Of a stretch of DNA of 64,000 bases, positions 11,756-63,547 are shown one piece after another. Within the stretch, counting starts at the first letter, position 1. Each line of letters starts with the position of its first letter. The notes beneath the pieces were generated by a model that saw only the letters and a program-made list of their open reading frames with translations, was not told the origin of the DNA and did not search any database. Source of the DNA: Heliocidaris tuberculata (taxonomy: Eukaryota; Echinodermata; Echinoidea; Camarodonta; Echinometridae); NCBI GenBank assembly GCA_025618425.1, contig CM046851.1, positions 5,001,024 through 5,065,023 of the forward strand, given 5' to 3'. A program made the position numbers and the translations under genes.

Positions 11756-11843
11756 ATGAACTTAATTACAATGGCAAACAAAGTTTGGGCGAAGTGTTGG
11801 CTCGCTTCTCTTGTACTTTTCTTCATAGGGACACCAGTATTCG
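11756..11843 (+). CDS. Exon 1: start codon and signal peptide
   Basis: ATG at 11756 opens a 29-residue leader with a short polar start (MNLITMANKVWAKC), a hydrophobic core (LASLLVLFFIG) and a small-residue end (TPVFG), typical of secretory signal peptides. The earlier ATG at 11730 is closed by a stop, so 11756 (or the in-frame ATG at 11771) is the start. The donor is GTAAGT right after 11843, phase 1. The next exon completes a Gly codon and continues NTLEIVNIS, so the join is in frame. Confidence 0.8.
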
Positions 11844-45569: not shown

Positions 45570-45608
<39 letters not shown>

Positions 45609-48600
45609 ATATATTTATAGATTATGTATGATTGAAATAGCATGAAAATAGTACGAGCGTACATTCTTAACATGCAGCTTGTTTAAATTTCACTCATTTC
45701 GCCTTGTCGAAGATGTACCTGCATGTAGATTTGTTTTAGGTGACAATGACAATGACAATGACAATGATTTTATTTCCCATGTCACCCCTTCCAGGGTATT
45801 GGAGAAACAATAATTCACAATCAGTTTGTATACACAAGAACAACTATATACAAATATATACAATATTTACAGTATGTCTGCGTAGAAAAAAAAAACAACA
45901 ACAAAAAAAAACAACAAAAAAAAAAACACACACAACTACAACAAGCGTACAATATTATGCACTGATTTGCACAGACACTTATTCCGTAACGTGGGTGTAA
46001 TGGAAACTAGAATATTGCCTGGCTATAACAAACAATGTACATGTATAAAATTAATCAAATAAAAGTGTAAGAAGCAATGAAACAAAGCTAAACTACAACA
46101 AAACAACCCAAAATATAGTAGGTGCACCTATCAGTATATACATTGTATAAACATATTTGAATATTATATATTGTACAATATCTAAGCATGGAGGGACATT
46201 ATCCCCTGACAGAATTTCGCTAGATTAGTTAAAACCTTCATATCTTTAGAATTAAACAATTGCTCCATTTTCAATGAACTTGGTCTGTTTCGGAAGCACG
46301 GTTTTACAAATCTCTTTCTCATAGCATCTGTTGCCGAGCATTCAAAAATATAATGAAATTCATCCCCAATCTTATTTTGCCTACACAACGTACAAATTCT
46401 GTCTTTTCTTGCAATATTAACATATCTACCAGTTTCAACAGGAAGTTTATGATTCGAGCAACGAAATTTCGACAAATGAACTCTATTTGAAAAAGGTAAT
46501 TTGATAAGGTAGTTTTCAAGACCAACATTGTTCTTAAAAATTCTATAATTAGTGCAATACGTACTTTCATGGATATTACTTCTCCAATTTTGCGAATAAA
46601 TATCTCTTAATCTCAATCTAATCGCTGAACTAAACCATGAATAAGAAACATTTCTGTTGTCATAAAATATATTAGACATACCAATCTCGTGGAGACTACG
46701 TTCAATATATAATAACCATGGGGAAGAATAAATAGCTTTGTCATGTAAAAGTTTCAAAATATTACAAACTGTATTTGCTAATTTAGCCTCTTTACCATTA
46801 ACAGTTCGGAACCAAAACTTTAGCATTCGTTCCTTAATATTTAAAGACATTTCCATCCTTCCAAGTTCTCCAACAGCCATGCCATTGTGTGTGTTCTTCC
46901 GTAGTCGTAAAACCTGTTTACAGAACTGGGTTTGCAACAGTTCTATCTGAGAAATATTTCCATGTCCCCAAATTTCACTTCCGTACAGAAGAATTGGCAC
47001 GACAAGACGGTCGAAAAGTTCAACTTGAATATCCAACGGCAACCTCAGTTGCCTTGATTTTATAATCAAACTGTACATTGCTCTTTTTGCTTGATTATAT
47101 TGTTTATTAATAGCTCTCTTAAACTTATTATTGTAAGAAAATATCACACCCAAGTACGTATATTCTTCTACAACTTCTACTATGTCATTATTAAACTTAA
47201 ACTGCGCATATTTTCGAACTTTTCCTCTCGAAAAAATAACTACTTTTGTTTTACTAATGTTAACCTCTAGTGACCACAAGTTACAATAAACGCTAACAGC
47301 ATCAAGAGCTGCTTGCAATTCATTCTCATTTTTCGCAAGTAGGATGGTATCATCTGCATACAATAGTGAAAAAAGTTTCAAGTATATATCAACACCTTCC
47401 GAGAGCAATGAATTGTCAATTTTAGTAGGTAATAAATCAACACCATCATATTTTTCTCTCACGAAAGATACAAAATCATTAATGTATAACGAGAAAAGTA
47501 ATGGAGATAGGTTTTCGCCCTGCCTTACACCAATTTTACAATCAAAATATTCCGATTTCTCTGAATGTTTAATAACTCGAGATTTTAAATTTGCGTACAT
47601 GCTTTTAATTATATTGAAGAGTTTCCCACTTATTCCACTTTGTGAAAGCTTAAACCACAATGAAGTCCTATCTATAGAATCAAAGGCCTTCTTATAATCA
47701 ATGAATGCACAATAAACTCTTTTCTTTTGAGATAGGTATAAATCTAAAAGAGAGTGTAAAACAAAGACATGGTCACTGGTCGAATAATTTTCTCTATATC
47801 CTGCTTGTTCCTCTCCAATTATATTATTATTATCTAAAAAGTAGTTTAATCTTTCATTAACTATCGATGTAAATAATTTACCAATACAGCTGAGCAGGGT
47901 AATTCCTCTATAATTATTAGGGTCTTTCGGTGACCCCTTTTTCTTGTATATTGGACATATAAGCCCAAGGGTCCAATCTGTTGGAATAATACCTGAATCA
48001 AATATTAAATTAAACAGCTTGGTGAGTAAACTGATCAATTGCCTAGGACTACATTTCAAACACTCATTTAATATCAGATCGACTCCAGACGCTTTGTTGC
48101 ATTTCAATTTGGTAATTTGATTAATAACTTCTTCTTCACAAATAGGTTGATCGAATTCCCCAAAATGTAACAAATAATCATTGTTATGGTTTCCTAACAA
48201 ATTACATCTTTGTGAAAGTAATCTATTGGTATCATTTAATTCCTGGAAATGAGTTCTAAATTCTTCAATATCGACAGGACAATAATTTCCCCCCTTTTTC
48301 TTCACGTTAAGAATATTCCAATACTGTTTGGGGTCTTTCGTTTTTAAGTCACGCAAATTTTTATGAAGATTATTAAAATAGACCGAACGCGCCTTATTCA
48401 CAGTTTTCTTGTATAAACGTTTCACGTTTTCAAATTCTTCTTGGATCGAAGTATCCGTAGCTTTCTTTCGTTTGTTTTTCAATTTGAAAAACTGCGATCT
48501 CAATATTATACACTCTTCATTAAACCAAGGTAAACAGTTTTTTGGTTTTCTCTTTTCACAATTATTAAAGCGACGTTGCAAAGAAGTTTTCTTCACCATT

Positions 48601-51600: not shown

Positions 51601-54600
51601 TCTCTGCCTCTTCTTTCTTCTCTTCCATCTTTTCTTACCATTCCTCCTCTTCTTCCTCCCCTTTGGCCTTATTTTCCTCTTTCTCTTCCTCTTCCGCTTC
51701 CTCTTATTTCTTATTTACCACTCATCTTTCGTTCATTTCCTCCTCTTCCTGGTCCCCGTACTTTTCCACATCTTTCTTCTCTTGCTCTTTCATCCACCCA
51801 TTCTCTTCTTATTTCTTATTCTTTACCCCTTCATCTATGTCTCATCAGTTGATCTTCTTTCTGCTCATCGTTCACCTCCTTCTCATACTCTTCATTAGGT
51901 CATTAATACTCATCTTCATTGTTTGTTTTCTTGCTTTCTAATACCGTCTTACCACATCCATATTGTGACTCATCAACTTTGATACTGACAAACGTCTCAT
52001 CTCAGTCAACAGAAAATATCCTAACATGCCTACTGCAATTTCCTACATTCCATTTTATACATGTTATAAAGTCATACATGTTATAAAGTCATACTGATAT
52101 GCCATTGCAGATTGTTACTTCGATCTCGGCCTCTCGTCTGGCCATATGCCTGATGAAAGCATCAAAATTTACCGTGAAGGAAGCATCGCATCAGAAGCCC
52201 CAGACTTAGTGCGGATGCTTCCCGTTCAATATTCACCATCGAATGGTCTATCATCGGGTGTGTCTGACGATGATCTCACTGTCCGAATCGACTTTGACAC
52301 CACGACACTCGTCAAGGCTATCATCATTCAGAGACGCGAGGGTTCGGGTCTTAAGAAGTTCACTTTCCAATATGACAACCAATCGCAGATTGAGTTCGTA
52401 AGTTCAGAGACACTCAAATTTTTGTCAATCATTAACAGCAGCGTAGGAATTCACTGGTTTAATCTTCATCATGCTAATGTCAGTCCGCCGCTTTCGTACC
52501 CCATTGATCAACTGCATTGTTTCATCTAAAGTATATTATGGCAGGGGCGGATCCAACGTTTTTTTTATAGAGGGGGCATGATGCCGTAACAGTACACAAT
52601 ATAGGGGGAATTTTTTTCTAATGTGTACTAAAGGTATGCCAGTTGGGTTTCAAAAGGGGATGCACGGGCCGGTTTCCCCCTATGTAGATCCGCCACTGTA
52701 TTATGGCATGCACCTACTCGCAGTAGGTCCGTGATTATGGTATCAGTGTATTGATTTTAAACCTTAGATAAGAGCATTTAACTGACTTATGTCCTCTTGA
52801 TGTGTATTGAGGTACAAAACTATCTTAACCACCTCGATGTATTCTTTCAGGACATCTCCGATTGTGATCTCAGAGTTTGCAAGAAGACGATCGAAAAGCC
52901 TCTAGCGGCGACCTCGGTGACCATCAGCAAATTAGAATGGACTATTGCTGGTATGCCCCACTTCTTCCGGTTTGAGCTGCTGGGATGTATCACTGTAGGT
53001 AAGAAACAACAACAACAAACATAAAATTTCAAACCCTTGTATAGTTTTTTGTAACTTCCCCTCACACGCACGAACACAATTCAAATTTCTTTCATGTTAG
53101 TTGATAAATCGCTAGATGTTAAGAAGAAGGGGAAAAGGGAAAGTGAAAAGATCCCTTACATTCTAAAATAAATTTTCCGACAAAGGTAACGAAAGTCCTC
53201 AGGTTTTTTAGGGGAGGGGGCGGGGACTTGTCGACATTGCATTAAAAAGCACCACTTTGCCCACTGAATATTTGAATGGGGTTAGCCCTCTAGCCCCTTG
53301 ATTCAAACTTACCGCTAAAATTGTTCAATAATCTAAAGGCTGAAGGTGATATTGCCATGATGGTGACATGATTGTTTCTACACAGACTGCATAACACCTT
53401 ATTGCACCGATGACTGCAACCTGAATTTTCTGGCGTCCAAGAATGCCCGCGAGATTGCTTCATCAAGGACCACTTCGATGCCTGCAAGATCCACTTGCGA
53501 GCTCGATATCCCTGAGAAAGACGACATGTTCATCACGTTCATATTACTTGGATTTCATGTGAGGAGAAATTTCCATTTGTATGTAATAGAACATCTTGCA
53601 AATGTATGAATCGTTGTTAACGTTAATGGGGTATCAGTTCAGAGTGGGCATGGTGGGGGCAGGATCATCCCAGTTGATCGACGGCTCACGATCTACAGTT
53701 CACGAGACATTTTGCCCTCTACACTGACGATATCAATCTCATGAACCCACAGATAAGTTGTCAGAAGGCCCACGAGAATGACATGCCAGTTGAGCTTCAT
53801 CTTAGGGATGCCGGTCTCGTGGGCCTTCGGCCAATATCAGGCTATAGCTAAGGAAGGCGATTCAACCAACGTCAATTAATTTCAAAAGGAAATATGTATA
53901 TGAAACATATTAAACTGCCCCAATTCTGAAGATTGATCGACGCCCGTGAATGTTCATCAAGTGCAAAATATGATTAGATTTTGTAAGTTGATATCATTTC
54001 TTAATGACGTAGTAGGGGTCGAAATCCTTATTTATATACGTATTTGCAGTTTTATTTATACAGGCTAACATTGTCGGTTTCAGAACTGCTTTCCACAACG
54101 GCCCTGTCAGCATTTACTGTGTACATGAAAATATTTTTAAAGATTGATATACAGAAAAAGAATATAATCCCTTGTAGAACAAAGAAATAAATTAATTTAC
54201 GTATATACAAAATACAGATTTGAAGACCATCTAAGAATAATTAGATTGAAGAAAAATGTTATACATGTAGTTTGTAAAAACACAAACGAAAACCTTGGAC
54301 TGGTATATAGCCATCATCTTGATGAAGGGTTTGGCAATAATTTCCATGTGCATCTACCTGCCATTCAGCAGAGTACATACAACTTCCATGTACCCTCAAA
54401 TGGGCTCTGAGGTTGACACTTCAAGATACAGTTTTCTTTTTTCTTGTTTGTTTCTTAACGGTTATACTTCCAGTCAGATGAAGACTCTGAAGAAGATGGG
54501 TCACTCGAAATCAATGAACCCGGAAAACCAAATAAATTCAGTCTTGGCAGCAGTGTTCCACCTGTCTTCGTCTCCTCATCCCCTACGGTATCTGTCCGCA

Positions 54601-57600
54601 TCCTGACTGGTATAAGTACGGCCCATCCTGACGTTACGGTTACTTATGGTTACACAGGTCCGTACGAAATGAATCGTCATCTATGTCTATCAAAATGTAT
54701 TTTTTGGTAGCATGTACTAGCATAGATGGTTATGAAGGTCTATATAAAATTACTTATTGTATGGGCATGTCTAAATTTGTAGTTCAGTTATGATGTGTGA
54801 TAACAAAAGGAATGTTCTCCCTGTATAACATCTTGCGTACATGAACACATTGCCCGGAGGAGATCCCCATATCACTACTTATGACCAGGGGCTCAATTCT
54901 TGTTCAGACGGGGGGGGGGGGGGGGGGGGGGGGGGTCAGTGGTCGAGAGTGGAAGGATATTTGAGGATGCATCCCTAAGTATATTTTGTATTTTGTATAA
55001 AGAAATAAGTATAAAAACTTTTCCTTGTATAGCAACGCCCTTGGTTAGTTTTGCAAGACCCCCCCCCCCCACCCTGATCTGGATCGCCGCCCTTGATCTT
55101 GACATTTAAAAAAATCACAAATTGCCAATCATTGTCGGATATTTCTGAAACGTTTACTATCTTGTTCTACGGATATTCCTCCTTCCATCCAAGCTATATT
55201 CCACGAAATGATAATTACCTGCTCTCCCTTAGATAAACCTGGATGTTACAGCGACAAGGATGAGACCGTGTGTAAAGGAACAGGTGGAATCATAATGTCC
55301 AAGAATTACTTCAACGACTATCCTGATGGCGTGAAGGAACATACTTGGACAATCATCACAAGTCTCTGGACGAAAGTCATCTTAACCTTCATCGAAATCG
55401 ACGTGTACTCGCTAGAAGACGATTGTGACGACGATTACGTAAATGTTACGGACTATAGTCAAGTCAATGTCTATTGCAACGTTGACGAGATGTCGGCCGA
55501 AGTGGAGTCGTCATCCAATTGGATGAAGATCAAGTTCCATTCTGATGCTCAGGACACCAAAGGACATACCGGGTTCTTAGGAGAATACAAAACGGAACTC
55601 CTCACGCCGGAATTCTCACAGCCCGTGGATAACCAGAGTAAGTAACAATAATCGGAAAGAGGTTGGACAGTCGCCAAATTACACAGACTGGAAATTGCGT
55701 ACTTAACTGTTCTAATCTTGCTGTTTTCCCATGTCAACGCCAGACCGTGATTCCATGATTGCCACTGTTTTTCTTTAAAAGCTGTTAAGCTCATATCAGA
55801 AAAGAGGTTACATAAAAGATGTTCAAAATATCACAAGCTTTCCATTCATTTGTTTAAATTTCCAATGAAGTTTTGATTTTAAAGAATGTGTTCTGTTGAC
55901 AGTATTGTATCTATCCGATTTTCGACTTCCGCAAGACATCCCTTATCTCCCATCTGTGAGTTCGCTAGTTTAAGAGATCATAATTATGCAAAAAAAAGGA
56001 GCATGAAAAAAAAATGATTCTCATTTTCAGGTTACACATGCCCGGATAGCTGGGATGTCTTTCATGGCTTCTGCTACAGCCTGTTTCGCCTGTCCGAGGA
56101 TATCACATGGACAGATGCGGAGCAGAAGTGTAAGGACAAACAAGCTCATCTAGTTAGCATCAGGGATCAGGACGAAATGAAATTTCTTCATTTCATGATA
56201 TCATCAGACAAGTGGAATTCTACACAAACAATCACGTACATTGGTAAATACCCGCCTTTGGTTTGTATATCCACTTTTGTAAAGGCAGTCGCAGATCCAT
56301 GATTTTGTAGTCTGGATGGAGAGCCAGCAATACCAGTAGCTACAAAATTAATGGAGGGTCACTTTTAACATCGTATACACGTTATAGGTATATCCTATAC
56401 TAGTTGCCTGAAATATGATGGGTCGCCTCTCCTATAAAGGGTGGTTAAAAATGATCTAATTATTTGGGCATTATGAACCTAGTGAATGACATCAGCATTG
56501 CTGCATGCAGTTTTCTTTTCTTTTTAATCTCTCTCTCTCTCTCTCTCTCTTGGTCAGTCTCTCAGTCACTGGCGGATATAAGAGAGTGGCACAACTGACC
56601 CGTGCCCTTGAAATCCTATTTGCCCGTCAATCAAGTATACAAGTAATTTTTAGTTGCTTCTCAGAGGTTTTTCGGAAGTGTGTCCCCGCCTCTGTATATT
56701 TTGTAATATCTACTTAAAAGAGAAGTAAAACGTCTCGTTTCCATGCCAATTCTTGAAATAATCAGTGGAAAATTTGCTTCTCCACAGTGTTGAAAGTGAA
56801 AATCATAATACCTGTGAGAGCTGAGATTCAGAACCTTAACTCTTTTCCCACTACATGTCAACACATTACTAACACCAGTAACGGTGTTATAAAAGGAGAT
56901 TCTATATATGCGCATGCAACAAAGCATCCTTTCCATATCTTGCAGGTCTTGGGAGCAGAGAGAAGTATGGTGTCTTTAGATGGACAGACGGTACTCCCAT
57001 GTCCTATACAGCTTGGGCAAAACAATCAGAGTATGTAATCTCTAATCTATCCTCATTGCCGCAAGTTTTCCGCGTCTTGTCGTCAATATTTGGGCCAACG
57101 TGAGTCGGTACCTCGGCCCCCAAAATGTCGCAAACATGCCAACGCCTAATATTGGCTCAACAGTTACAAGTGGACGTTGGTCTAAAATATTAATTGGTGA
57201 TTGGTTCCATAAATTAGAAAAGATATACGCTCTTTGATTAAAACGAGAATTTCATGCTCTCTGGTTAAGAGTATCGTCTAAAGCTACGACTCATCGAAAA
57301 AGTACAAATCAGTCTTATTGAATGAATTTAGCAAATCATTTCCCTTTGCATTCCCTCAGATAAAAAGTTTTAGTCTAATAGCTGTAATGATAAAACACAT
57401 ATATGGATGTCAGGAGTGGGATTTCTTTGCAACATAGGCCTTCACTATAGCTGCCAGTTCTTTTTGTTGTTGTTTTTTGCAATTGGCGTTTCCCTCTCTA
57501 TTATCATAACAACTATCTTTACAGCTCTGATCTGACGGATAGGCAACCGGATGGTGCATCCCTGGAAGCTTGTGTCAAGTTGGTTCTAAATCAGGAATCT

Positions 57601-60600
57601 CTTACCGACCTATCCTTCGACATGTTCGACCTGTGGCACGATGTAGCCTGTGCGGCAACGGAGACTAGTCAGTTCATATGTGAACGTCCTGCAGATAGAG
57701 TAGAAGGTAATGGCAGAGCGAGTACGATCAGACAATATACAAGACGGTATTGCTGGACAAACACCCATTCAGGGGCGCTGATAGATTCGTGGGGGGGGGG
57801 GGGGCTACAACCTCTTACATGTAATTTTGAAATTTATTGAGGCTTGTTGGCAAAAGAACCTTTCTGTCTTCTCAATGTTGCTATACAATATTGACAACAA
57901 AATAGGCTTGCTGATTTTTGGTAATTTCTATTATCATGATTGATTTTTCTTTGGTTTATATGCAGGTTCTTTCGTTGATGAGCAATTTCCAGTCTACAAG
58001 TCAGGTAAGAAAAAAAATTGAAACTAGTTGTTCAAGATATAATTACCTTGTTCAGACTTTTTGCTTGAAATAATGGGTTTCATGAATTTCACTCGTGGGC
58101 GGGGGTGTCATAATGTGCAGAGTTGTCTACATTTAGACTAATATTTTCTTTGATTGTTTTGTTTTGTTTTATTATAGACGTTGATGACAACCAATGCGGA
58201 CCTGGATTGTACCATTGTTCTTCGGGGGAGTGCATCAATGAAGTTTTCATTTGTGACAGCAAAGATGATTGCAATGATCGTAGTGACGAAAATGATTGTC
58301 CAAATAGTAAAATTACAATTTTATTACGGATGGGGGCGGATAATTCGATTTATCTTCATTACCGTACATTGAAGAGGAGTGAAAGTGAATGCAGTCTTGT
58401 CCTAATATTTCCAATTTAGCATGCAAAGTAATCTTCGATACCCATGAAAGCATTTAATGCCTTTATGGGTATCAAGATTACAAACAGATGGGAAGCCTTT
58501 TTTCATTGTACATGTATTTTCTTTACTCATATCTTTTCGGGGATCTATCATAATAAAAATGAAACAAAGTGAATAAATCATGTGTATTCTATGTTACACC
58601 TAAATAAACTGTTGTTTGTTTTATTCGCTGTTATACAGTATGTTTCATTTACTATCTTTTCTGATCGTTCTCTTGAAATTGCATTGTTCCATGGACATTT
58701 GTCATGTTTGTAGTGTTTGAGTCCGACAGAAATGTCAAAGTGTACATGGGACCTGGGCTCCTTACGTAGTCCCCGAAATTTATGTTTTTTCTCGATATTT
58801 TTAGACAGTTTTAGTTTGTCCTGTCACTGGTTGGCAATACGCTGTCATGTTACTGTCTGTGCAGGACATACCCAAAATGCATATTATTTAGGTCTTTTTC
58901 GAAACTTTTACAATTCTCTTCGCATGTTGAGCTTTTTGTTAGCAAATTCTGTAATTTTTAAATTTAATTTGTCGACAGTTTAGCTGAGACTGTCCTTCAC
59001 CTCTTACACACACATGCTTCATACCTCACACAGATGACGAATGCCTCCCCAACCAGTTCCAGTGCACAGATGGTGCCTGTATTGCGTCCGCGTTCTTCTG
59101 TGATACAATAGTGTTACATTGCCTCGACAACTCCGATGAAACTGCTTGCAGTAAGTTTTTAAAAACGGCGTTCAAAAAGCAAAGCGCAATGTAGATTTCA
59201 TGATTAGGTTTAGCCTAGTTCACAGTACATGAGCCATTACTTGACCGGTTGCATCATTAATTTTTACAACATTCATTCAGGCAAGATTTGACTGGAAATT
59301 GCTTGAATCCTTATCTGAGTGTCTAGGTTGCACACGAGGGATCATTTGCTGACGTGGGGCTGTGACGGCGACTTATGGAGTCTTTGACGCGCCATCTGAA
59401 ATATTGCATTGAAGAATTACCAGAAGCAAGTGCCGAGGTTCACATTCTAAGAATTGAAAATTTTGTAGATTAGTATGCCAGCTTTTTATTCCGTTCATCT
59501 AACGAAATCTAGCATCTCTACCATGATTAACTGTTACTGCATCAAGAATTTAAAAAAAAAAATCATGATAAGGCCTCTTATTTATCTATACGTGAAAGCC
59601 CGCAGAACCTTTTTTGTTGTTGTTGAGTGGGCTTTTATTAACTCTTGTGGATGGCGGTTTCATTCCATAGATTATCCCGACTGCCGGGAAAACGAGTTTA
59701 CCTGTGACAGCAACCAATGCATCGATGCCTCCAGGAGATGCGACTTCATTGACCACTGTTTTGATGGTTCCGATGAAATAGGATGCGGTGAGTTATCATG
59801 GTAACAAGCACTCTTACGATTAAATAAATAGATAAGTTCAAATTTTAGTTACACATTTTCATTACCACACCATGGTCTTATTCATGTTATAAGTGGTAGG
59901 TGTAGATGAATTAAACAGGGTGAATCGGTAAAATACAAAATTTTAAAAAAGAAAGAAAAAGAAGTAGTGTTGCAAGTGCAATGATTGGCCTTCTTACGGC
60001 TCCACGATGTATTTTTGATGCCTTGCTCATTTTGGGAATAGAATTGCTATAAAGTTTACATTCTATATTCCACATCAGTGGCAGATGATGGGGCATAATT
60101 ATTCAGATATTTCTATGCGTTTTTAAAGTGCTTAAAAAAATGTAAGAAGAATGTTGATTGTTCTTATTCTTTCTAACAGAAAAGAAAGACTACAATGTAG
60201 AAGTGTTCCAGTGTTACGACGGAACACTCCTTCCAGCCGAGGTTCATTGTGATGGGCTGATTGATTGCATAGGAAACACACATGAAGACGAGAAAAATTG
60301 CCGTAAGTAGCACGGGCGGATTATTTTGAGGGGCGGGGCAGGGGCATTGTCTGCCAGTGCCACTACTAAACTCAATCTGGCATAATTTTATGTTTTGCTT
60401 GTCGGAGATTGAGATTTTTCGGGAATGTGCCCCCTTGACAGAATTCTAGGACCGCCTCATGTAATCAACTAGTCCCATAAGTAATGATTCTTTCATCATC
60501 AAGACTAGATGTTTTTGTTTGAATAGTATTGAGAGCAATTTCTTCTCTCGTAGACTTTGATCAGGTAGCATTACCTAACTCATTTAAATTAGGTACGTTT

Positions 60601-63053
60601 ATGCGACCAAAAGTGGCTCCAGATCACAAGACCGATAGTCATCCAGACTGATAGTCCACGAGACTGACAGACCATCTGACCCATAATGTCTGTCTCACGG
60701 GGCTTCTGTCAACAGTTCTGAGGGTTTACTAGATAGACCTTGTCGGTCTCGTGGGCTGTCAGTCTAATAGAAGTTCTAGTACAAAATATCCTGACCAAAA
60801 ATGCAGGAAGCCTTTAAATCCTATCGAATTGTAATAGATAATTTCAAATCAAACCAAATTAACCAAGTCAAACTTAATTGCACTATATAGTTAAAGCTAT
60901 GGTCTTACTTTTTCTGTCACCAGCAAACCAGGAGATATTGGATGAACGGAAATTCTACTGCCCTGAAGGCGCATTGAATGATGTCTCATTTAAATGCATG
61001 TATGACTTCAACGAGTACGGGTTGATTAAAGGATGTCGTAATGTCGAACATTTGAAGGACTGCAGAAACGGCAAGTCAGATATTCTCTTATTATCGGTAT
61101 TTGCACGATTTCTTATGGCAATAAATGGAGTAAAACTTTAACGTTTTATTCGGTTACTTTTATTTTCTTACTACATGTACTATAAATTCATCGACGAATC
61201 ATTTTTTCCGCGTATTATTGAGTAGTTTGCTACGATTATTACCAGCAGTTTATCAGCGTTTTGATAATCTCTGAAAATATAGCAATTATATGAAATATCT
61301 TAAATGACCTGTCTCTGTCTCTGTTTTTCCATTCTCTATCCCCCTCTCAATAGTGTTTTTCCATTATTTTTTTTCCAATAGCAAATGACACATGCCCCGA
61401 GAACACGATGAGGTGTCCTAACTCTTATTGCATCCCACTGCGATACCGATGTGACGGCAAGGAGGACTGCCAGTATGGCGAGGACGAAAAACAGTGCGGT
61501 GAGAAGAATGATTTTTTTTTAAAGAAACGATTCTGTTGAATATATGCATTTAAATTTTGAGTTAACGTGGTTAATCGATCGCCATCATAGTCTATACAAC
61601 AATGTATCGTTCTATCTCTTAAACTCTCTCTCTCTCTCTCTCTCTCCCTCTTTCTCTGTCTTTATAGGAATACAGGCTTATATGTATATATTTGAAAATC
61701 CATCCATACTTGAGAAATCCATATCAAGATCAATTATTGGTTTATGATTATAGACAACCTTTGCAGGGGCCGCGGAGCGTTTTTGAAAGTGGGGGGGGGG
61801 GGGGGGGGGGGCTGATCTGATTTCACTCATTAATGACAATTTTCGAGCCTTTTTTCCAAAAATTTTTTAAAACATGTCTACTCAAAAAGTGGGGGGGGGG
61901 GGGGGGGGCTGCAGCCACCCAGCCCCCCCGGCTCCGCGGCCCATGCTTTGTACATGACTTGTGATAGTCCTTAAAAAAGATGCCCTAACGGATGAACATT
62001 GTGGGGCAAATTCGTATACTTTTTTTTTCAATGCGAATGTATTTGTATTTAGAACACTCAAAGTGCACAAATACTTCGAATTAGAAATTAGTTCCATTCA
62101 ATACTTAAAAATGTTTCGATTATTTTCATTTATTATGTTATACACAAATAGGGTCTAAATATTTTGATTACTGCTGGTTTACCATGGTTACGACAGGGTC
62201 TGCATGAACCGAATCTCAATAGGTATGAAATGCCCTCAAGATTCTGCCGTATTTCCTTATATCTGAGTCACACCTGGGGGGCGTTTCATGAAAGATATTT
62301 TATCCGACAAATTTGCTCTCAGCCAATCAGATGCAAGGATTTCAGTAGCTTATAACAGTTGTCGGATAAAAATCACTGACAAAACGCTTGATGAAACGCT
62401 CCCCAGCAAACCTACTCCACACCGACTCCAAACCGACCGATTCTTGGCCATTCGAGGAAATGTAATGTTTCGTTCAGTGTGTTGTCGGTCTTGGCCCTGT
62501 TTCATTAAACTTGTTATAAGTAACAACTGCAAAATTTCTATGACAAATTTGCTCTCGGCCAATCAGATTCAATGATTTCACTAGCTTATAACAATTATTG
62601 TAACTTGTTATTGATAACAAGTTTCATGAAACGGGCCCTGGTGTGACTGGGGTATTAGTGTTTCCGAGTCTCATATTTGTCTTTTATCCCTAAAGATTCC
62701 TTTAACTGTCCGGAGGGCACATACCATTGCAAAAGCAAATCCAGCAAAGGCCTCTGTATAAGTCCTGATCACGTGTGCGATGGCGTCATTCATTGCCCGG
62801 ATGGCGACGACGAAATTAATTGCTGTAAGTAATGAACCCCCTTAAAACCCACTCATAAGCCCACCACACAATCACACGGTCACCCACCAACTCGCCCACA
62901 CACATCCACAATGAATATTATATAGAACATTCGAATTGAATTGAACTTACATCGAGCACCAGCATGGCGGATAAAAGCGTTATACGGGAAACAATCGTCA
63001 TCATCATCATCAGCAGCAGCAATAAAATCACCATCATCAGTTCCATCATTATT

Positions 63054-63094: not shown

Positions 63095-63547
63095 TTTTAT
63101 GATCATCAGGTAGCACAGAGACTACAAATGTATCGCTTTGAACTCTTTTTTTATATGTACTTGATTTAATATTGTGTAAAATTGTCACCATGGTCACAAT
63201 GCTCAATACGCGGTGTGGATATTTCAATATGTGTGAAAACGGTTGTCGAAGAGAATAAAAAGTTGCTTTTTTTTACAGCAAAAGTACATAGTTGTAAATC
63301 ATTTAGAATTCACTCAAGTTAAAAATAATATTTAAAAGAACGGACAATAAAGGTTAGTTGAACCTAAATAGTAAAAAGGAAGGATCAGTCCCTTTTCTCA
63401 TCTCCGAGGTTATGTACTATACTCTGCACGCCCTCTCTCTTTCACTTCAGACAAATGTCCGATTGGATGTGAATGCAACGATCTTTCCTACACCTGCAAT
63501 TTGACTGTCGAAGTCAGTCGCCAGTTACCCAGGCAGCTGAGAAAACT
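11756..63547 (+). CDS. Mosaic CUB/discoidin/C-type lectin/LDLa/LRR receptor gene (overview, 25 exons, 3' incomplete)
   Basis: This entry joins the 25 exons listed separately below. The spliced frame is open for 4,676 nt (about 1,558 codons). Residue map: signal peptide 1-29; CUB1 30-160; CUB2 161-289; CUB3 290-418; CUB4 419-547; CUB5 548-661; F5/8C 662-806; CUB6 807-925; CUB7 926-1060; C-type lectin 1061-1220; linker 1221-1233; LDLa1-7 1234-1526; LRR cap from 1527. Every module begins and ends in phase 1, as in shuffled extracellular genes. In known families, many LDLa modules followed by LRRs mark GRL101-type and relaxin-receptor-type GPCRs, which act at the plasma membrane. CUB, discoidin and lectin modules bind proteins or glycans. 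Ligand, LRRs and membrane helices are not visible here, so a secreted or single-pass receptor remains possible. The exon chain is hand-traced and has no transcript support. Confidence 0.85.
13425..13690. mobile_element. hAT-like miniature element (AGGGGCGTCGATCC ends), copy a
   Basis: The ends AGGGGCGTCGATCC and GGATCGACGCCCCT are exact complements. The body matches the element at 17268-17576 (shared words CCAGCTTCTCCACGG, TTTGGAAGGTTTCATT, CTCCGGATTTATTGGG). No transposase. Confidence 0.75.
15154..15602 (+). repeat. Tandem duplication, two units of about 222 bp
   Basis: The units start near 15154 and 15376 and share long words such as GTGGTAGTAGGACATACATC and CTTCAAATTGGTAACA. A handful of substitutions separates them, so it is older than the 8721 duplication but still recent. 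Confidence 0.85.
16859..17146. mobile_element. 288-bp miniature inverted-repeat element, CACAGTGTG family, complete copy
   Basis: Terminal repeats of about 23 bp: the left starts CCCTGCCGGAAAGAACACAG and the right ends CTGTGTTCTTTCTGGCAGGG, with one mismatch. The interior is a series of CACAGTGTGAA and TTCACACTGT words in both orientations. A truncated copy is at 143-418. Confidence 0.85.
17268..17576. mobile_element. hAT-like miniature element with 8-bp target duplication, copy b
   Basis: The ends CAGGGGCGTTGATCC and GGATCGACACCCCTG are flanked by GTTGGCTT (17260-17267) and GTTAGCTT (17577-17584), an 8-bp duplication with one mismatch. Duplications of 8 bp and CAGGGG-type ends are characteristic of hAT transposons. 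The interior carries poly-G and poly-C runs. Confidence 0.8.
18214..18569. repeat. Array of GGTTCATAATTCCGAA words in both orientations
   Basis: The left side repeats AAGGTTCATAATTCCGAA and the right side repeats TTCGGAATTATGAACC, giving a 356-bp foldback structure with several alternative pairings. The ends TTTTCCGAAGGTTC and GAACCTTCCGAAAA are complementary. Confidence 0.8.
19828..19870 (+). repeat. (GA)n microsatellite
   Basis: About 40 bp of near-uninterrupted GA units, followed by GGGAGA words to about 19892. Confidence 0.9.
20190..21130 (+). repeat. Old, diverged tandem duplication (offset about 520 bp)
   Basis: Two blocks, near 20190-20650 and 20740-21130, share an ordered set of diverged words: GCTCTTNCGTGA, a GGGAAAGTGTT-like word, GATACTTNATTAAAA, CCGCCCACTAGGAAGT versus CCGCCCCTAGGAAGT, and GTGATGG...TTTG. 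Order and spacing are conserved although individual bases differ. Confidence 0.55.
22172..22246. repeat. (TA)n microsatellite
   Basis: Roughly 70 bp of TA units. The tract lies directly beside the inverted repeat starting at 22261. Confidence 0.9.
22261..22727. mobile_element. Inverted repeat with about 120-bp arms and 220-bp loop
   Basis: The left arm (22261-22380) and right arm (22604-22727) are complementary over nearly their whole length, sharing words such as CATATGACACCTCAATCGGG and GAGCCAGGGATGACAAAGCT. No ORF lies in the loop. It could be a foldback transposon or a hairpin-forming transcript source. Confidence 0.75.
23031..23423 (+). CDS. Exon 2: CUB domain 1 (single exon)
   Basis: This 393-nt phase 1-1 exon sits between acceptor TTCTACATAG and donor GTAAAT. 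It encodes a complete CUB-like fold: SPGFPGAYGDNLLATWLIHV matches the CUB opening S-P-x-[YF]-P-x-x-Y....W.I, followed by an aromatic/acidic centre (SVEYDCDFLKVGFG) and the final GFYVNVSAIG strand. It has one cysteine (in YDCD) instead of the usual four. NIS near the start is a potential N-glycosylation site, as is NVS near the end. Local base composition is clearly richer in GC than the flanking introns, as expected for coding sequence. Confidence 0.88.
24788..24839. repeat. Left member of a distant inverted pair (partner 30490-30556)
   Basis: CTCCGCC...AGAGACATTT...CCCGAAGCCCCCATTAGCAT here is matched in reverse by ATGTTAATGGGGGCTTCGGG...AAATGTCTCTGAC...GGCGGAG at 30490-30556. The pair encloses the candidate non-coding transcript. 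Confidence 0.55.
24976..25030 (+). promoter_or_regulatory. CRE/ETS motif cluster
   Basis: CACTTCCG, TGACGTCA and AGGAAGTG lie within 55 bp. This combination is typical of CpG-poor housekeeping promoters bound by ATF/CREB and ETS factors, and it sits just before a consensus splice donor. Confidence 0.4.
25560..26060. repeat. CTAGATCTA-rich low-complexity stretch
   Basis: Words such as CTAGATCTAGATCTAG, GTTAGATCTA and TAGACCTA recur irregularly over 500 bp in either orientation; BglII/XbaI-like hexamers are far above chance. No period is obvious. Confidence 0.6.
27448..28910. repeat. Inverted pair of GGGTCCAGTTTTCC segments with poly-G/poly-A tracts
   Basis: GGGTCCAGTTTTCCTTCAAAA...CTCTGACAAGCAA near 27448-27485 reappears in reverse near 28863-28905. 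Poly-G, poly-C and poly-A tracts lie between. Related 'CTGACAAGCAAAAAA' sequence occurs at 33840 and 34590, so this is a dispersed repeat family. Confidence 0.55.
29800..30030. repeat. (GA)n and poly-G cluster
   Basis: GA-rich runs at 29800-29835 and 30012-30028 with a poly-G tract at 29996-30008. Low complexity explains the leucine/serine ORFs on the other strand. Confidence 0.8.
30490..30556. repeat. Right member of the distant inverted pair (partner 24788-24839)
   Basis: See the left member. The spacing between matching words differs, so these may be ends of an old 5.7-kb element or two separate insertions of one repeat. Confidence 0.5.
30540..30955 (+). mobile_element. 3' end of a non-LTR retrotransposon (LINE)
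   Basis: A GC-richer stretch passes into an AT-rich tail with CTTCGGACTTTTTGCTGAG, AATAAAA and a terminal (TTGAA)n run (30928-30950). A short microsatellite after AATAAAA is the typical 3' end of CR1/L2-type elements. The ORF2 portion is missing or decayed, so this is a 5'-truncated copy. Confidence 0.6.
31139..31325 (+). CDS. Exon 3: CUB domain 2, first half
   Basis: The exon follows a pyrimidine-rich acceptor (TTCTGCCTTAAAG) and ends at donor GTGAGT. It enters in phase 1 (Asp codon completed) and leaves in phase 2. The peptide DEGVDYRPYIGFENFKNKIHL through YLKGFQTTDR reads as the first four strands of a CUB domain, with LPNYKGG in the position of the usual S-P-N-Y-P. No cysteine is present. 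The second half is exon 4. Confidence 0.82.
31326..32579 (+). other. Intron 3 (inside CUB2)
   Basis: GT-AG intron, phase 2. It contains a poly-G tract near 31698-31719. No other feature is recognised. Confidence 0.8.
32580..32779 (+). CDS. Exon 4: CUB domain 2, second half
   Basis: Acceptor CCTCTGCAG and donor GTAAGA bound this 200-nt exon (phase 2 in, phase 1 out). It completes an Arg codon and reads SAILYFGEGKEVGKR through WMWVMFTNSYRNNAEQSGF and KLRITEIK. That is the CUB second half: L.v..G, then an aromatic-rich strand with a small-residue turn, then the GF.l.... C-terminal strand. It has no cysteine, so CUB2 as a whole is cysteine-free. Confidence 0.84.
32946..33206 (-). repeat. GCTATTCAT inverted-repeat family, copy 3
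   Basis: Starts GGGTCCGCTCGC and ends GACTAGCAAGGTTACCCCC, which is the reverse orientation of copy 2 at 5751-6008. Words ATGAATAGCG and CGCTATTCAT alternate. Confidence 0.75.
33914..34570. mobile_element. TTAA-flanked inverted-repeat element with about 210-bp arms
   Basis: The ends AAAGGTCCCCTGCAACCC and GGCTGCAGGGGTCCTTT are complementary and overlap flanking TTAA at both sides (33912-33915 and 34569-34572), the target preferred by piggyBac elements. Arms at 33914-34120 and 34353-34570 share, in reverse, TCTCATTCCTGCA and GACATCATCTGTCAATCAT. No transposase ORF. Confidence 0.75.
35637..35793 (+). CDS. Exon 5: CUB domain 3, first half
   Basis: Acceptor TTCTTCACAG and donor GTAAGA; phase 1 in, phase 2 out, the same pattern as exon 3. 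The translation PEIILTPENPYNFTFNAS, then VFSATWNVRAPPGTSIRISF, matches the CUB W.I.aPpG.ri.l.f strand pair closely. NFT and NAS are potential N-glycosylation sites. The exon ends within an Asp codon that exon 6 completes. Confidence 0.84.
35794..36876 (+). other. Intron 5 (inside CUB3)
   Basis: GT-AG intron, phase 2. It contains the hAT-like element at 36221-36486, which includes a purine-rich GAAGAAA stretch. Nothing else is recognised. Confidence 0.8.
36221..36486. mobile_element. hAT-like miniature element with perfect 8-bp target duplication
   Basis: The ends CAGGGGCGGCGC and GCGCCGCCCCTG are complementary and flanked by perfect GGTGGATC duplications (36213-36220 and 36487-36494). Length 266 bp, no transposase; the interior includes poly-G and a GAAGAAA run. 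This is the clearest hAT-type insertion in the window. Confidence 0.88.
36877..37106 (+). CDS. Exon 6: CUB domain 3, second half
   Basis: The acceptor is TTTTTTTTTCGCAG. I chose donor GTGAGA at 37107 over the weaker GTATAG at 37101 because it fits consensus; both keep phase 1. The peptide INLDFFMVGDGWTYLRYEQY resembles the CUB D.l.v.dG centre, and RVFIGFYGYDSGADSV gives the late strands. One cysteine (AGRCHRD). It leaves in phase 1. The two candidate donors differ by two residues, so the exact end is slightly uncertain. Confidence 0.82.
37107..38232 (+). other. Intron 6
   Basis: GT-AG intron, phase 1. It contains a (TG)n-rich stretch at about 37130-37217 and a short duplicated CCAGGGGTCATCGT word at 37693-37722. 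No gene. Confidence 0.75.
38233..38619 (+). CDS. Exon 7: CUB domain 4 (single exon)
   Basis: This is a 387-nt phase 1-1 exon between acceptor TTTACACCTAG and donor GTGAGT. It contains TSPNYPNQYPHSSIMTWVLR, the clearest CUB opening in the gene, followed by APPLYRFNVHFDKFKLE, then YMWIKLESDQLGVDGRFAFN as closing strands. It contains no cysteine. NMT and NIT are potential N-glycosylation sites. Confidence 0.88.
38620..40508 (+). other. Intron 7
   Basis: GT-AG intron, phase 1, with one inverted-repeat element at 39304-39569. The rest is unannotated. Confidence 0.8.
39304..39569. mobile_element. 266-bp inverted-repeat element flanked by TA
   Basis: The ends TAACGTTGAAAAGGCTTACG and CGTAAGCCTTCTCAACGTTA are complementary over about 30 bp with two mismatches. 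TA at both borders fits Tc1/mariner-type target duplication. No ORF of transposase type. Confidence 0.75.
40509..40850 (+). CDS. Exon 8: CUB domain 5 (single exon)
   Basis: This 342-nt phase 1-1 exon lies between acceptor TTTTCACAG and donor GTAGGT. RSPYYPLPYENEAYVKWKIE, then VPDGHSVMLHFIKFHL, then the acidic DSGDTLVIED segment, fit the CUB fold; SFGVGEGFNIKVQPIFG is the end strand. No cysteine. A downstream 11.3-kb intron separates it from the discoidin domain. Confidence 0.88.
41161..41400. mobile_element. 240-bp inverted-repeat element (CAACACCGAA family)
   Basis: The ends GGGTGATTTCAAGTTCGGTG and CACCGAACTTGAATTCACCC are complementary with one mismatch. A (TTGGTG)n run follows the left end, and inverted words CCCCAACACCGAATTCGGG lie inside. 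Confidence 0.75.
41776..41878. repeat. (ATT)n tail of the SINE
   Basis: About 100 bp of ATT units immediately beyond the 3' end of the minus-strand SINE, which reads as (AAT)n on the SINE strand. Confidence 0.85.
41879..42240 (-). mobile_element. tRNA-derived SINE with conserved central domain
   Basis: On the minus strand the head has an RNA polymerase III A box TGGCTCAGTCGG (complement at 42218-42229) and B box GTTCGAATCC (complement at 42175-42184). The body includes CACGTTAAGAACCCACTG, a motif also found in the conserved domain of several invertebrate SINE families. The 3' end runs into an (AAT)n tail. The order head, body, tail indicates a complete copy. The match to a named SINE family is from memory and needs a library search. 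Confidence 0.82.
42240..42428. repeat. (ATC)n/(ATT)n trinucleotide array
   Basis: ATC and ATT blocks alternate over 190 bp directly before the SINE head. They explain long poly-Asp, poly-Asn, poly-Ser and poly-Leu ORFs. Confidence 0.9.
42490..42700 (+). repeat. Unclassified repeat with (AAT)n tail
   Basis: About 200 bp of complex sequence ends in GGTAATAGAGTAATGATAATAA and leads into a trinucleotide array. The layout suggests another retroposon 3' end, but no diagnostic motif was found. Confidence 0.35.
42694..42964. repeat. (AAT)n/(GAT)n array
   Basis: AAT units with interspersed GAT and AAC variants, interrupted near 42880-42930. Confidence 0.9.
43886..43921. repeat. (AAT)n microsatellite
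   Basis: About 35 bp of AAT units, 30 bp left of the 43952 element. A similar array follows that element at 45531. Confidence 0.9.
43952..45529. mobile_element. 1.6-kb inverted-repeat element, non-autonomous
   Basis: Perfect 15-bp ends ATTAGGTGGTCTGTC (43952-43966) and GACAGACCACCTAAT (45515-45529). AAT arrays flank both sides. The interior has no transposase ORF but includes a tRNA-like segment and a GCGC/CGCG-rich stretch (45040-45210). The short terminal repeats and large interior suggest a deletion derivative of a DNA transposon. Confidence 0.65.
44288..44350 (-). other. tRNA-like segment (3' half resembles tRNA-Gly)
   Basis: On the minus strand GGTCTATTGGTAAAGTACTT and CAGGTTCGAAATCCCGGTGG resemble A and B boxes and T arm, with CCTCCCATC in the anticodon region and a T-run after the 3' end. 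The 5' acceptor strand does not pair with the 3' strand, so it is not a functional tRNA gene; a pseudogene or retroposon head. Confidence 0.5.
45531..45606. repeat. (AAT)n and (TA)n microsatellite
   Basis: AAT units turn into TA units with few interruptions. Confidence 0.9.
45742..45772 (-). repeat. (CATTGT)n 3' tail of the LINE
   Basis: Four to five ACAATG units on the plus strand, immediately downstream of the LINE's AATAAAATC word on the minus strand. This marks the 3' end. Confidence 0.75.
46182..48860 (-). pseudogene. LINE ORF2 3' part: reverse transcriptase
   Basis: An 892-codon open frame with reverse transcriptase motifs in order: FIDYKKAFDSIDR (motif A), GVRQGENLSPLLFSLYIND (motif B) and LLYADDTILLA (catalytic YADD). 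The C-terminal region has CTLC...GDEFHYIFEC, a zinc-knuckle-like C-C-H-C motif seen at the end of many CR1/L2-type ORF2 proteins. No internal stop. It overlaps the endonuclease frame by 34 nt in a different frame, marking the frameshift. Confidence 0.9.
48827..49675 (-). pseudogene. LINE ORF2 5' part: APE-type endonuclease
   Basis: Encodes an exonuclease/endonuclease/phosphatase domain: LGVNVCGLRSK (Asn site), YETKTD (catalytic Glu region), LIGDFNARTG (GDFN motif) and SVIDYCITT (S..DY end motif). It nicks target DNA in known LINEs. The frame breaks near 48888-48893 (a 1-nt loss or equivalent), after which the reverse transcriptase frame continues. It was therefore originally one ORF with the next entry. 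Confidence 0.85.
49697..50641 (-). pseudogene. LINE ORF1 with one in-frame stop
   Basis: It starts at the ATG complementing 50639-50641. The N-terminal part holds a 'coiled' low-complexity region, then RRENIRIYGIPESD, a signature of L1-type ORF1/transposase-22 RRM proteins that bind RNA. A stop at 50051-50053 interrupts the frame; the same frame continues ARPIIAKFVRRETKVEVMRA, typical of the protein's second half, to the terminator just below 49697. About 315 codons including the stop. ORF2 follows after some 20 bp. Confidence 0.8.
51390..51920 (+). repeat. Pyrimidine-rich low-complexity tract
   Basis: Over 500 bp dominated by CTT/CCT/TCT words, with purines scarce. No splice or coding pattern is seen apart from strand-biased ORFs. 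Confidence 0.85.
52111..52397 (+). CDS. Exon 9: F5/8 type C (discoidin) domain, first part
   Basis: Acceptor GCCATTGCAG; donor GTAAGT; phase 1 in, phase 0 out. The peptide CYFDLGLSSGHMPDESIKIY is the classical discoidin opening (C...LG..sG.ipd..i..s), and VRIDFDTTTLVKAIIIQRRE corresponds to the l.vdlg....v..i..qgr strand. Known F5/8C domains bind phospholipid headgroups, glycans or collagen through apical loops. The domain is completed by exon 10. Confidence 0.85.
52542..52698. mobile_element. hAT-like miniature element, 157 bp, perfect 8-bp target duplication
   Basis: The ends CAGGGGCGGATCC and GATCCGCCACTG are near-complementary, flanked by TATTATGG at 52534-52541 and 52699-52706. It is the shortest complete member of the class in the window. 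Confidence 0.88.
52851..52998 (+). CDS. Exon 10: F5/8 type C domain, C-terminal part
   Basis: Acceptor ATTCTTTCAG; donor GTAAGA; phase 0 in, phase 1 out. It ends RFELLGCITVG, matching the invariant close of discoidin domains (lR.El.GC), so the first Cys of exon 9 and this last Cys form the expected terminal disulphide. Two further cysteines (SDCDLRVCKK) are extra. The usual W in the preceding strand is replaced by HFFRF, indicating divergence. Confidence 0.83.
53386..53558 (+). CDS. Exon 11: divergent CUB domain 6, first half
   Basis: Acceptor TTTCTACACAG; donor GTGAGG; phase 1 in, phase 0 out. The opening DCITPYCTDDCNLNFLAS has three closely spaced cysteines, and STCELDIPEKDDMFITFILL resembles the w.i..p....i.l.f strand pair of CUB domains. 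It lacks the SP.YP motif, so this is the weakest module call in the gene. The open frame and matching splice phases still support it as an exon. Confidence 0.74.
54474..54657 (+). CDS. Exon 12: divergent CUB domain 6, second half
   Basis: Acceptor TATACTTCCAG; donor GTCCGT (non-ideal at +3); phase 0 in, phase 1 out. The segment starts with a strongly acidic run (SDEDSEEDGSLEI), followed by a Ser/Pro/Val-rich stretch and PDVTVTYGYTG, which corresponds to the GF...y final CUB strand. Assignment as the second half of CUB6 is inferred from position and length. Confidence 0.74.
54889..55097. repeat. Poly-G/poly-C-bearing repeat in intron 12
   Basis: CAGGGGCTCAATTC at the left and GGATCGCCGCCCTTG at the right border a stretch holding a 25-bp poly-G and a 10-bp poly-C run. 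Probably a degraded relative of the CAGGGGCG elements; the ends no longer pair well. Confidence 0.45.
55233..55637 (+). CDS. Exon 13: CUB domain 7, canonical cysteines
   Basis: This 405-nt phase 1-1 exon lies between acceptor CTCTCCCTTAG and donor GTAAGT. It carries the canonical CUB cysteines: GCYSDKDETVCKG, DDCDDDYVNV and VYCNVDE. Acidic residues (EIDVYS...DDCDDDY) occupy the positions that bind Ca2+ in cbCUB domains (E, D, D), so calcium-dependent ligand binding is plausible. NVT is a potential N-glycosylation site. This is the only CUB in the gene with a normal disulphide set. Confidence 0.9.
56031..56243 (+). CDS. Exon 14: C-type lectin domain, first part
   Basis: Acceptor TCATTTTCAG; donor GTAAAT; phase 1-1, 213 nt. 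CPDSWDVFHGFCYSLFRLSE is the typical long-form CTLD start (CP.gW..f...CY), followed by TWTDAEQKC and AHLVSIRDQDEMKFL, the conserved alpha-1/beta and 'LvsI....E..fl' motif. The remainder of the fold is in exons 15 and 16. Confidence 0.9.
56946..57030 (+). CDS. Exon 15: C-type lectin domain, central part
   Basis: This 85-nt exon has acceptor TATCTTGCAG and donor GTATGT; phase 1 in, phase 2 out. With the end of exon 14 it gives YIGLGS, the WIGL-equivalent strand, then FRWTDGTPMSYTAW, the usual 'w.W.dG....y..W' segment. The Trp of WIGL is Tyr here. Confidence 0.88.
57525..57706 (+). CDS. Exon 16: C-type lectin domain, ligand loop and C-terminus
   Basis: Acceptor ATCTTTACAG; donor GTAATG; phase 2 in, phase 1 out. 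It contains QPDGASLEACVKL (a QPD motif, which in known lectins favours galactose-type sugars) and WHDVACAATETSQFICE. The usual WND triplet reads WHD, so one calcium/sugar ligand is changed. Cysteines for both conserved disulphides are present. Sugar binding is therefore possible but not assured. Confidence 0.88.
57966..58004 (+). CDS. Exon 17: 39-nt linker microexon
   Basis: A 39-nt phase 1-1 exon between acceptor TTTATATGCAG and donor GTAAGA encodes a short linker (SFVDEQFPVYKSG) between the lectin domain and LDLa1. Both splice sites are strong and phases match. Skipping it also keeps the frame, so it could be an alternative exon. Confidence 0.65.
58178..58306 (+). CDS. Exon 18: LDLa module 1
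   Basis: A 129-nt phase 1-1 exon with acceptor TTTATTATAG and donor GTAAAA. All six cysteines are present, and CDSKDDCNDRSDENDC carries the full calcium cage (D, D, D, E). LDLa modules fold around calcium and bind ligand basic residues. The peptide YHCSSGECINEVFIC gives the first half. Confidence 0.9.
59034..59150 (+). CDS. Exon 19: LDLa module 2
   Basis: A 117-nt phase 1-1 exon with acceptor CTCACACAG and donor GTAAGT. ECLPNQFQCTDGACIASAFF, then CDTIVLHCLDNSDETAC: six cysteines and an intact SDE, but the usual D-C before the fourth spacing is H-C, so one calcium-cage position is altered. Confidence 0.9.
59671..59787 (+). CDS. Exon 20: LDLa module 3
   Basis: A 117-nt phase 1-1 exon with acceptor CATTCCATAG and donor GTGAGT. 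DCRENEFTCDSNQCIDASRR, then CDFIDHCFDGSDEIGC. All six cysteines and the DGSDE motif are intact. Confidence 0.9.
60180..60302 (+). CDS. Exon 21: degenerate LDLa module 4
   Basis: A 123-nt phase 1-1 exon with acceptor TTTCTAACAG and donor GTAAGT. VFQCYDGTLLPAEVHCDGLI, then DCIGNTHEDEKNC. Only four of six cysteines remain: the first is missing and the third is replaced in the TLLPAEV stretch. The calcium motif reads HEDE instead of SDE. The calcium-binding fold is probably altered. Confidence 0.82.
60924..61070 (+). CDS. Exon 22: degenerate LDLa-like module 5 with GC donor
   Basis: A 147-nt phase 1-1 exon with acceptor TGTCACCAG. The peptide FYCPEGALNDVSFKCMYDFN, then GLIKGCRNVEHLKDCRN, has four cysteines with LDLa-like spacing but no SDE. 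No GT donor keeps the frame; the GC donor in ACG|GCAAGT at 61071 does, and it matches the consensus for GC-AG introns. The next exon joins in phase 1. Confidence 0.75.
61382..61498 (+). CDS. Exon 23: LDLa module 6
   Basis: A 117-nt phase 1-1 exon with acceptor TTTTTTCCAATAG and donor GTGAGA. TCPENTMRCPNSYCIPLRYR, then CDGKEDCQYGEDEKQC. All six cysteines are present; SDE is EDE, still acidic. Confidence 0.9.
61767..61942. mobile_element. Poly-G inverted-repeat element (CAGGGGCCGCGGAGC ends)
   Basis: CAGGGGCCGCGGAGC at the left and GGCTCCGCGGCCC at the right are complementary; the interior has two long poly-G runs. The terminal CTG on the right side is lost. Related by end sequence to the hAT-like class. 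Confidence 0.65.
62276..62405. mobile_element. Palindromic foldback element, copy 3
   Basis: GGGGGCGTTTCATGAAAG to CTTGATGAAACGCTCCCC around GCTCTCAGCCAATCAGATGC. Highly similar to copy 2 at 10306-10443. Confidence 0.8.
62494..62640. mobile_element. Palindromic foldback element, copy 4 (diverged)
   Basis: GCCCTGTTTCATTAAACTTG to CAAGTTTCATGAAACGGGCC around GCTCTCGGCCAATCAGATTC. It lies 89 bp after copy 3 and 56 bp before LDLa7, and belongs to a different subfamily resembling copy 1. Confidence 0.75.
62696..62824 (+). CDS. Exon 24: LDLa module 7
   Basis: A 129-nt phase 1-1 exon with acceptor TTATCCCTAAAG and donor GTAAGT. NCPEGTYHCKSKSSKGLCIS, then CDGVIHCPDGDDEINC. Six cysteines and DGDDE are present. 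An insertion in the first loop (KSKSSKG) makes it longer than modules 2, 3 and 6. Confidence 0.9.
63045..63092. repeat. (CAT)n microsatellite
   Basis: About 48 bp of CAT units with ATT variants at the start. Confidence 0.9.
63451..63547 (+). CDS. Exon 25: leucine-rich-repeat N-terminal cap (LRRNT)
   Basis: Acceptor TTTCACTTCAG; donor GTATGT; phase 1 in, phase 2 out. KCPIGCECNDLSYTCNLTVE and RQLPRQLRKL match the LRRNT pattern C-P-x-x-C-x-C....C......lP..L..L that starts an LRR domain. NLT is a potential N-glycosylation site. LRR exons of LGR-type receptors are usually phase 2, so LRR exons are expected to the right of the window. Confidence 0.88.

Follow-up and report, generated by a model that had tools for sequence, protein, structure and literature searches.

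The stretch of DNA analysed here (the window) comprises 64,000 nucleotides of the sea urchin Heliocidaris tuberculata (assembly GCA_025618425.1, contig CM046851.1), and it was studied together with 120 kb to its right in a genome of 897 Mb in 69 contigs. In window coordinates, which are used throughout, a gene on the plus strand extends from 11756 to 71266 and thus ends 7.3 kb beyond the window's right edge. As modelled from a splice-site scan and alignments to relatives, it has 36 exons and encodes 2310 amino acids with no internal stop. A preliminary description of the window had reported 25 exons joining in phase with no stop; the phase and the open frame were retained in both an earlier 33-exon model and the final one, but the count up to 63547 rises to 27. 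Comparison with relatives revealed F5/8C-1, the first of two such domains, and an LRR exon, both absent from the initial exon model. A single open frame was present in 30 of the 34 internal exons, and 34 of the 35 introns are GT-AG, while the last has a GC donor. Six joins connect the LRRNT exon with the hinge/TM exon, and at each of them the split codon encodes leucine (33-exon model). Exon 1, a predicted signal peptide 11 kb upstream that was assigned by its sequence, donor and phase, is the least certain element of the model.

Table. Features of the gene and its surroundings (window coordinates unless prefixed L)
Feature	Position	Strand	Evidence
Exon 1, start codon and predicted signal peptide	11756..11843	+	sequence; strong donor; joins exon 2 in phase 1
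CUB1 (single exon)	23031..23423	+	Pfam CUB 2.3e-5; 65% identity to Lytechinus P0139
CUB2	31139..32779 (exons 31139-31325, 32580-32779)	+	profile best match MASP-3, E 0.013, weak; aligned in P0139
CUB3	35637..37106 (exons 35637-35793, 36877-37106)	+	profile matches enteropeptidase CUB, 5.5e-6; aligned in P0139
CUB4	38233..38619	+	Pfam CUB 1.4e-6
CUB5	40509..40850	+	Pfam CUB 2.8e-11
F5/8C-1 (discoidin)	42523..51358 (exons 42523-42683, 43585-43701, 51214-51358)	+	tblastn with urchin relatives, phase, Pfam
Non-LTR-type retroelement in intron 10 (43702-51213)	46185-48902, 48830-49696	-	906-codon open frame, RVT_1 1e-36; endonuclease frame, Exo_endo_phos 2.5e-7
F5/8C-2	52111..52998 (exons 52111-52397, 52851-52998)	+	Pfam (jointly with F5/8C-1); profile to neuropilin-1, 2.3e-9
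CUB6	53386..54657 (exons 53386-53558, 54474-54657)	+	profile matches cubilin, 1.3e-4
CUB7	55233..55637	+	Pfam CUB 8.8e-11
C-type lectin	56031..57706 (exons 56031-56243, 56946-57030, 57525-57706)	+	Pfam Lectin_C 6e-14; PDB CTLD matches; QPD, WHD
Seven LDLa exons	58178..62824	+	Pfam Ldl_recept_a 4.6e-38, six stretches; splice sites
LDLa exons 1-4	58178-58306, 59034-59150, 59671-59787, 60180-60302	+	
LDLa exons 5-7	60924-61070 (degenerate, GC donor), 61382-61498, 62696-62824	+	
GC donor of fifth LDLa exon	61070-61072	+	sole non-GT donor in the model
LRRNT exon	63451..63547	+	gene continues past the window
LRR exons	64060-64176, 65250-65321, 65853-65924, 66534-66605, 67098-67178	+	LRR_8 2.4e-19
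Hinge and TM1-6 (one exon)	68102-69005	+	7tm_1 9.6e-33
TM7 exon	69595-69733	+	
Tail exons (stop in the second)	70039-70265, 71078-71266 (L009:6039-6265, 7078-7266)	+	
Downstream exons resembling RCC1 repeats	L010:8374 to L011:4911		by eye; HERC-type gene
Three long open frames, similar to each other, with many tyrosine motifs (DDYYSVV, DVYSEM)	L015:9885-L016:1024; L018:6061-7287; L019:9624-L020:874		by eye

The encoded protein runs from the signal peptide through CUB1-5, F5/8C-1, F5/8C-2, CUB6-7, a C-type lectin domain, seven LDLa modules, LRRNT and LRRs, a hinge and the seven helices (7TM) to a cytoplasmic-side tail, and its N-terminal CUB/discoidin/C-type lectin array spans about 1330 residues. 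This is the module order read previously, except that one F5/8C domain had been counted where there are two, the additional one lying between CUB5 and the one already seen. LRR exons and a rhodopsin-type seven-helix domain had been predicted to follow on the right, and both were found within 6 kb of the window's end, in the LRR, TM1-6 and TM7 exons of the table. CUB1, CUB4, CUB5, CUB7 and the lectin domain each exceeded the Pfam cut-offs. CUB2, CUB3 and CUB6 gave no Pfam match individually and were assigned through small profiles (3 to 5 sequences each), for which the best PDB matches were all CUB proteins. The Pfam family F5_F8_type_C matched in two stretches across both discoidin domains (7.3e-15); F5/8C-2 by itself fell below the cut-off (E 0.011), and its neuropilin-1 match came from a four-sequence profile. 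Seven LDLa modules were assigned against six Pfam stretches.

Intron 10 separates two exons of F5/8C-1 and contains a minus-strand retroelement; the annotation of Lytechinus breaks the gene at the same place. Downstream of the gene, the three long open frames are perhaps receptor tails of a tandem family, as judged by eye.

The exon chain could in principle belong to two genes, i.e., an upstream secreted CUB/discoidin protein and a downstream GRL101-like receptor, and a split of this kind had been named beforehand as the outcome that would undo the one-gene reading. Such a split does exist in one annotation: RefSeq for Lytechinus variegatus has two models, P0139 (LOC121432180, 744 aa) and P0001 (GRL101-like, 1485 aa), which sit on equally long contigs and to which our gene is 65% identical over 734 aa and 74% identical, respectively. 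Both halves, however, break off in mid-domain, P0139 stopping within F5/8C-1, of which it aligns with the first two exons, and P0001 beginning within F5/8C-2, and neither starts with the signal-peptide exon. The exon phases of the 36-exon model are compatible with one gene, and paralogues are predicted as one protein: P0003 of Lytechinus is continuous from both F5/8C domains to the 7TM, and P0004 of Diadema antillarum likewise combines CUB modules with a 7TM, although its discoidin and lectin region is incomplete. P0002 and P0005 of Diadema setosum are also joined, but they weigh less because both include stretches that resemble retroelements and P0002 extends into a second CUB gene; these public models are likely annotation errors. 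We read the P0139/P0001 pair as an annotation split, behind which a truncated soluble form could conceivably lie, and consider two separate genes improbable.

The sequence makes it very probable that the gene encodes a type C2 (GRL101-like) leucine-rich-repeat GPCR (LGR) with a recognition arm. It combines several LDLa modules ahead of an LRR ectodomain (LRRNT and five LRR-region exons) with a rhodopsin-type 7TM of the LGR kind, in which the motifs DRC, CWMP and NPYLY were found; these motifs make G-protein coupling plausible. The closest PDB match of the LRR-hinge-7TM region was RXFP1 (6.5e-64), followed by TSHR, FSHR, LHCGR and LGR4, and a fold search with the AlphaFold2 model of a Diadema relative, P0019 (mean pLDDT 77.8), ranked RXFP1, TSHR and FSHR first. 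In a FastTree tree of 166 7TM segments that did not include Lymnaea GRL101, the gene fell together with GRL101-like proteins of molluscs and with echinoderm proteins, and RXFP1 and TSHR lay outside this group (support 0.896). It paired with P0001 (support 1.0), and the clade around this pair (1.0) also holds the C19 loci described below and P0019, whose position within it was weak (0.308). Sequence and fold search uphold the GRL101/relaxin-receptor kinship proposed in the preliminary description, and the tree is consistent with it. The larger, kringle-bearing receptors P0006-P0011 fell in other echinoderm branches. An adhesion GPCR was considered and rejected, since the helices match 7tm_1 and a Pfam scan at E up to 10 revealed neither GAIN/GPS nor 7tm_2.

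An unexpected observation was that the tails of P0006, P0012, P0034, P0130 and others look like a degenerate kinase C-lobe. In our gene the tail after NPYLY is 163 residues long and lacks an N-lobe, a catalytic HRD and a DFG; a full kinase was rejected because the tail is too short and has no catalytic motifs. Molluscan and echinoderm GRL101-like receptors have this tail module in common. With the window's tail left out, a profile built from 15 tails matched VRK3 at 9.9e-10, and the best 60 of 1313 matches at E up to 1 were all kinases or pseudokinases; this set derives from a first profile of 16 tails chosen by eye, so both profiles lean toward kinase-like members. With the tails of the window's subgroup alone, the best kinase match was not significant (E 0.17), kinases making up 24 of the 28 chains with E up to 10, and the subgroup's tail matched the family-wide profile at 96.3% in hhalign. 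For a wider scan, 120 of 138 proteins had an NPxxY-type pattern and 47 of their tails had at least 100 residues; in the 43 that remained after setting aside P0013, P0030, P0050 and P0058, Pfam PK_Tyr_Ser-Thr was found in 8 and Pkinase in 7 at E up to 0.1, and the tail of the orthologue P0001 gave no Pfam family. A mollusc-only profile matched P0001 at 0.037, and the window's tail was not among its matches at E <0.05; an ophiuroid profile listed the window's tail at 7.7e-6, and an urchin profile listed ophiuroid and mollusc tails. Models of the P0019 and scallop P0130 tails have the order helix, helix, strand, strand, helix, which in our reading would correspond to alphaD, alphaE, beta7, beta8 and alphaF of a kinase. 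The P0019 fold search is silent on the tail because its best 50 of 1769 matches are GPCRs. Taken together, we think that the GRL101 tail is probably homologous to a kinase C-lobe.

The gene is accompanied by similar loci. At five loci on C19, as at the window, matches to CUB1, CUB5, F5/8C-2, CUB7, the lectin domain and the 7TM follow each other on one strand in the same order, except that no CUB1 match was listed for C19d and no F5/8C match for C19e; those at C19:443k and 709k have equal scores and may be duplicates. Among the 13 best-scoring 7TM loci of the genome (the window included), out of at least 187 matches, 12 have a lectin match on the same strand, 7-27 kb upstream; the eleventh, C8:34.8M, has none. 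Five weak lectin matches (E 3e-4 to 1e-3; C1, C9 and C15) have no partner among these 13. We estimate that this genome has lectin-armed GRL101-type receptors at about a dozen loci; compared with their best S. purpuratus protein, the paralogues show 83-92% identity. The available text of PMC8286064 gives a single GRL101 orthologue for each ambulacrarian, against which the present genome has several more receptors of this type. Other urchins, starfish and a brittle star also have giant relatives among their predicted proteins. A degenerate LDLa pattern was found in 15 of 73 proteins longer than 550 aa, namely the window gene, nine of the eleven echinoderm proteins P0001-P0011, two scallop proteins and three shorter echinoderm proteins; P0004 and P0005 lack the strict pattern and have a variant visible by eye. 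The coral and unnamed GRL101-like proteins P0084, P0088 and P0122 carry CUB and PF00040, which we take to be fibronectin type II, beside LDLa and LRR, and CUB may therefore predate Bilateria on such receptors or have arisen twice. Single-exon GPCRs at L038-L052, about 40% identical to the window 7TM, nest among the echinoderm GRL101-like proteins in the tree and are perhaps the urchin 'surreal' receptors (PMC7042368, as far as its available text goes).

QPD and WND are the Ca2+/sugar motifs of galactose-type C-type lectins. The window's lectin domain has QPD, with WHD in place of WND, so Ca2+ binding is not assured. Among eight proteins that were themselves selected by pattern, QP(D/N) occurs in all eight (QPD in seven, QPN in one), as does W(H/N)D (WHD in seven, WND in one). 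To our knowledge, classic immune-recognition modules are rare on GPCRs, and the unusually long outer arm, made of sugar- and protein-binding types of module, suggests that sensing of microbes or matrix may feed directly into G-protein signalling.

The best overall explanation, to which we assign a probability of about 0.55, is a lectin-armed GRL101-type receptor that passes capture by its arm to a G protein. The arm would capture a multivalent target outside the cell, the likeliest candidates being Ca2+-dependent galactose-type glycans on microbes or matrix, and capture would shift the LDLa array and the LRR/hinge unit. Together these could then act on the helices, much like the LDLa module of relaxin receptors, a G protein would be engaged, and the tail might serve as a docking module; expansion to several loci would serve different targets. 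Taken separately, the step from capture to G protein, drawn by analogy, falls somewhat short of even odds, and a glycan or microbe as the target is a more tentative proposal. A broader generalisation is doubtful: GRL101-type receptors might be bilaterian recognition GPCRs that arose by two fusions, with an outer, evolvable CUB/discoidin/lectin arm for capture and an inner, vestigial kinase C-lobe as a signalling scaffold, and in urchins they would form surface sensors at roughly a dozen loci, coupling glycan or microbe recognition straight to G proteins.

Other functions would fit parts of these data. If the gene encoded a peptide-hormone receptor, an insulin/IGF-like peptide would bind at the LRRs and LDLa modules and the arm would merely localise or tune the response. 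The 7TM and LRRs are indeed nearest to those of relaxin and glycoprotein-hormone receptors, and IGF has been proposed as a GRL101 ligand, but the gene is one of many, unlike the one GRL101 per species reported (both from the accessible part of PMC8286064). The arm, moreover, is conserved at several loci and in several echinoderm classes, and we regard a hormone receptor as unlikely. Guidance and matrix proteins also use CUB and discoidin modules. This use, together with neuropilins as the best matches of the F5/8C-2 profile, is consistent with an adhesion or matrix receptor that acts in cell contact during development or regeneration; defence is better fitted by the multi-locus expansion and the snail GRL101 link, which leaves adhesion somewhat less probable again. 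A chemosensory receptor akin to the expanded single-exon echinoderm GPCRs, which lie in the same region of the tree at about 40% identity, is the least probable reading, even though starfish sensory tentacles show raised levels of a GRL101-like gene (PMC6267866, in its available part), because those receptors match as single exons and the arm does not resemble known odour receptors.

The lectin-armed receptor can be set beside several known systems. RXFP1 shares LDLa, LRR, hinge and 7TM with our gene and has no arm, and it carries one LDLa. GRL101, first found in Lymnaea, and the GRL101-like type C2 LGRs likewise have an LDLa array, LRRs and an LGR-type 7TM in common with it; the textbook form, as the accessible text of PMC8286064 presents it, differs in having twelve LDLa modules, six LRRs and no CUB/discoidin/lectin arm. 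Among literature titles and abstract openings, we found no description of a CUB/discoidin GRL101. Amphioxus receptors with CUB, lectin, LDLa, kringle or discoidin modules carry similar recognition modules on a GPCR but belong to the adhesion family, whereas our gene is 7tm_1 (PMC2246102, available part). GPCR-kinase fusions of choanoflagellates, sponges, oomycetes and amoebozoans place a kinase-type fold behind a 7TM, an arrangement that the GRL101 tails would parallel; as far as PMC12716839 could be consulted, they join kinase domains to other 7TMs, whereas the GRL101 tails have only an alphaD-to-alphaF-like fragment without catalytic motifs. Similar in composition are the giant echinoderm proteins P0003 and P0006-P0011, in each of which F5/8C, CUB, C-type lectin, LDLa, LRR and 7TM are predicted in one protein; P0006-P0011, annotated simply as 'uncharacterized protein', add a kringle and in most cases also EGF modules.

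Overall, the locus is a real gene, very probably for a GRL101-type LGR, and its recognition arm is exceptional; predicted proteins of the same type occur in urchins, starfish and a brittle star. Together with its paralogues and with the relatives from starfish and a brittle star, the gene offers a set for direct tests of glycan or microbe sensing through a G protein. Lectin-bearing GRL101 receptors are already known from snails, and the CUB/discoidin/lectin-armed form is a variant of them. The SudRes2 GRL101-like receptors of Biomphalaria combine C-type lectin, LDL, LRR and GPCR in clustered paralogues, as our gene does; compared by description only, they differ in that CUB and F5/8C modules are not named in the available text (PMC12297450). 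Snail lectin-LDL-LRR GPCRs have been linked to schistosome resistance (PMC12297450, same text), which may make SudRes2 the best functional analogy and our gene the echinoderm counterpart of that lectin-bearing GRL101 cluster.
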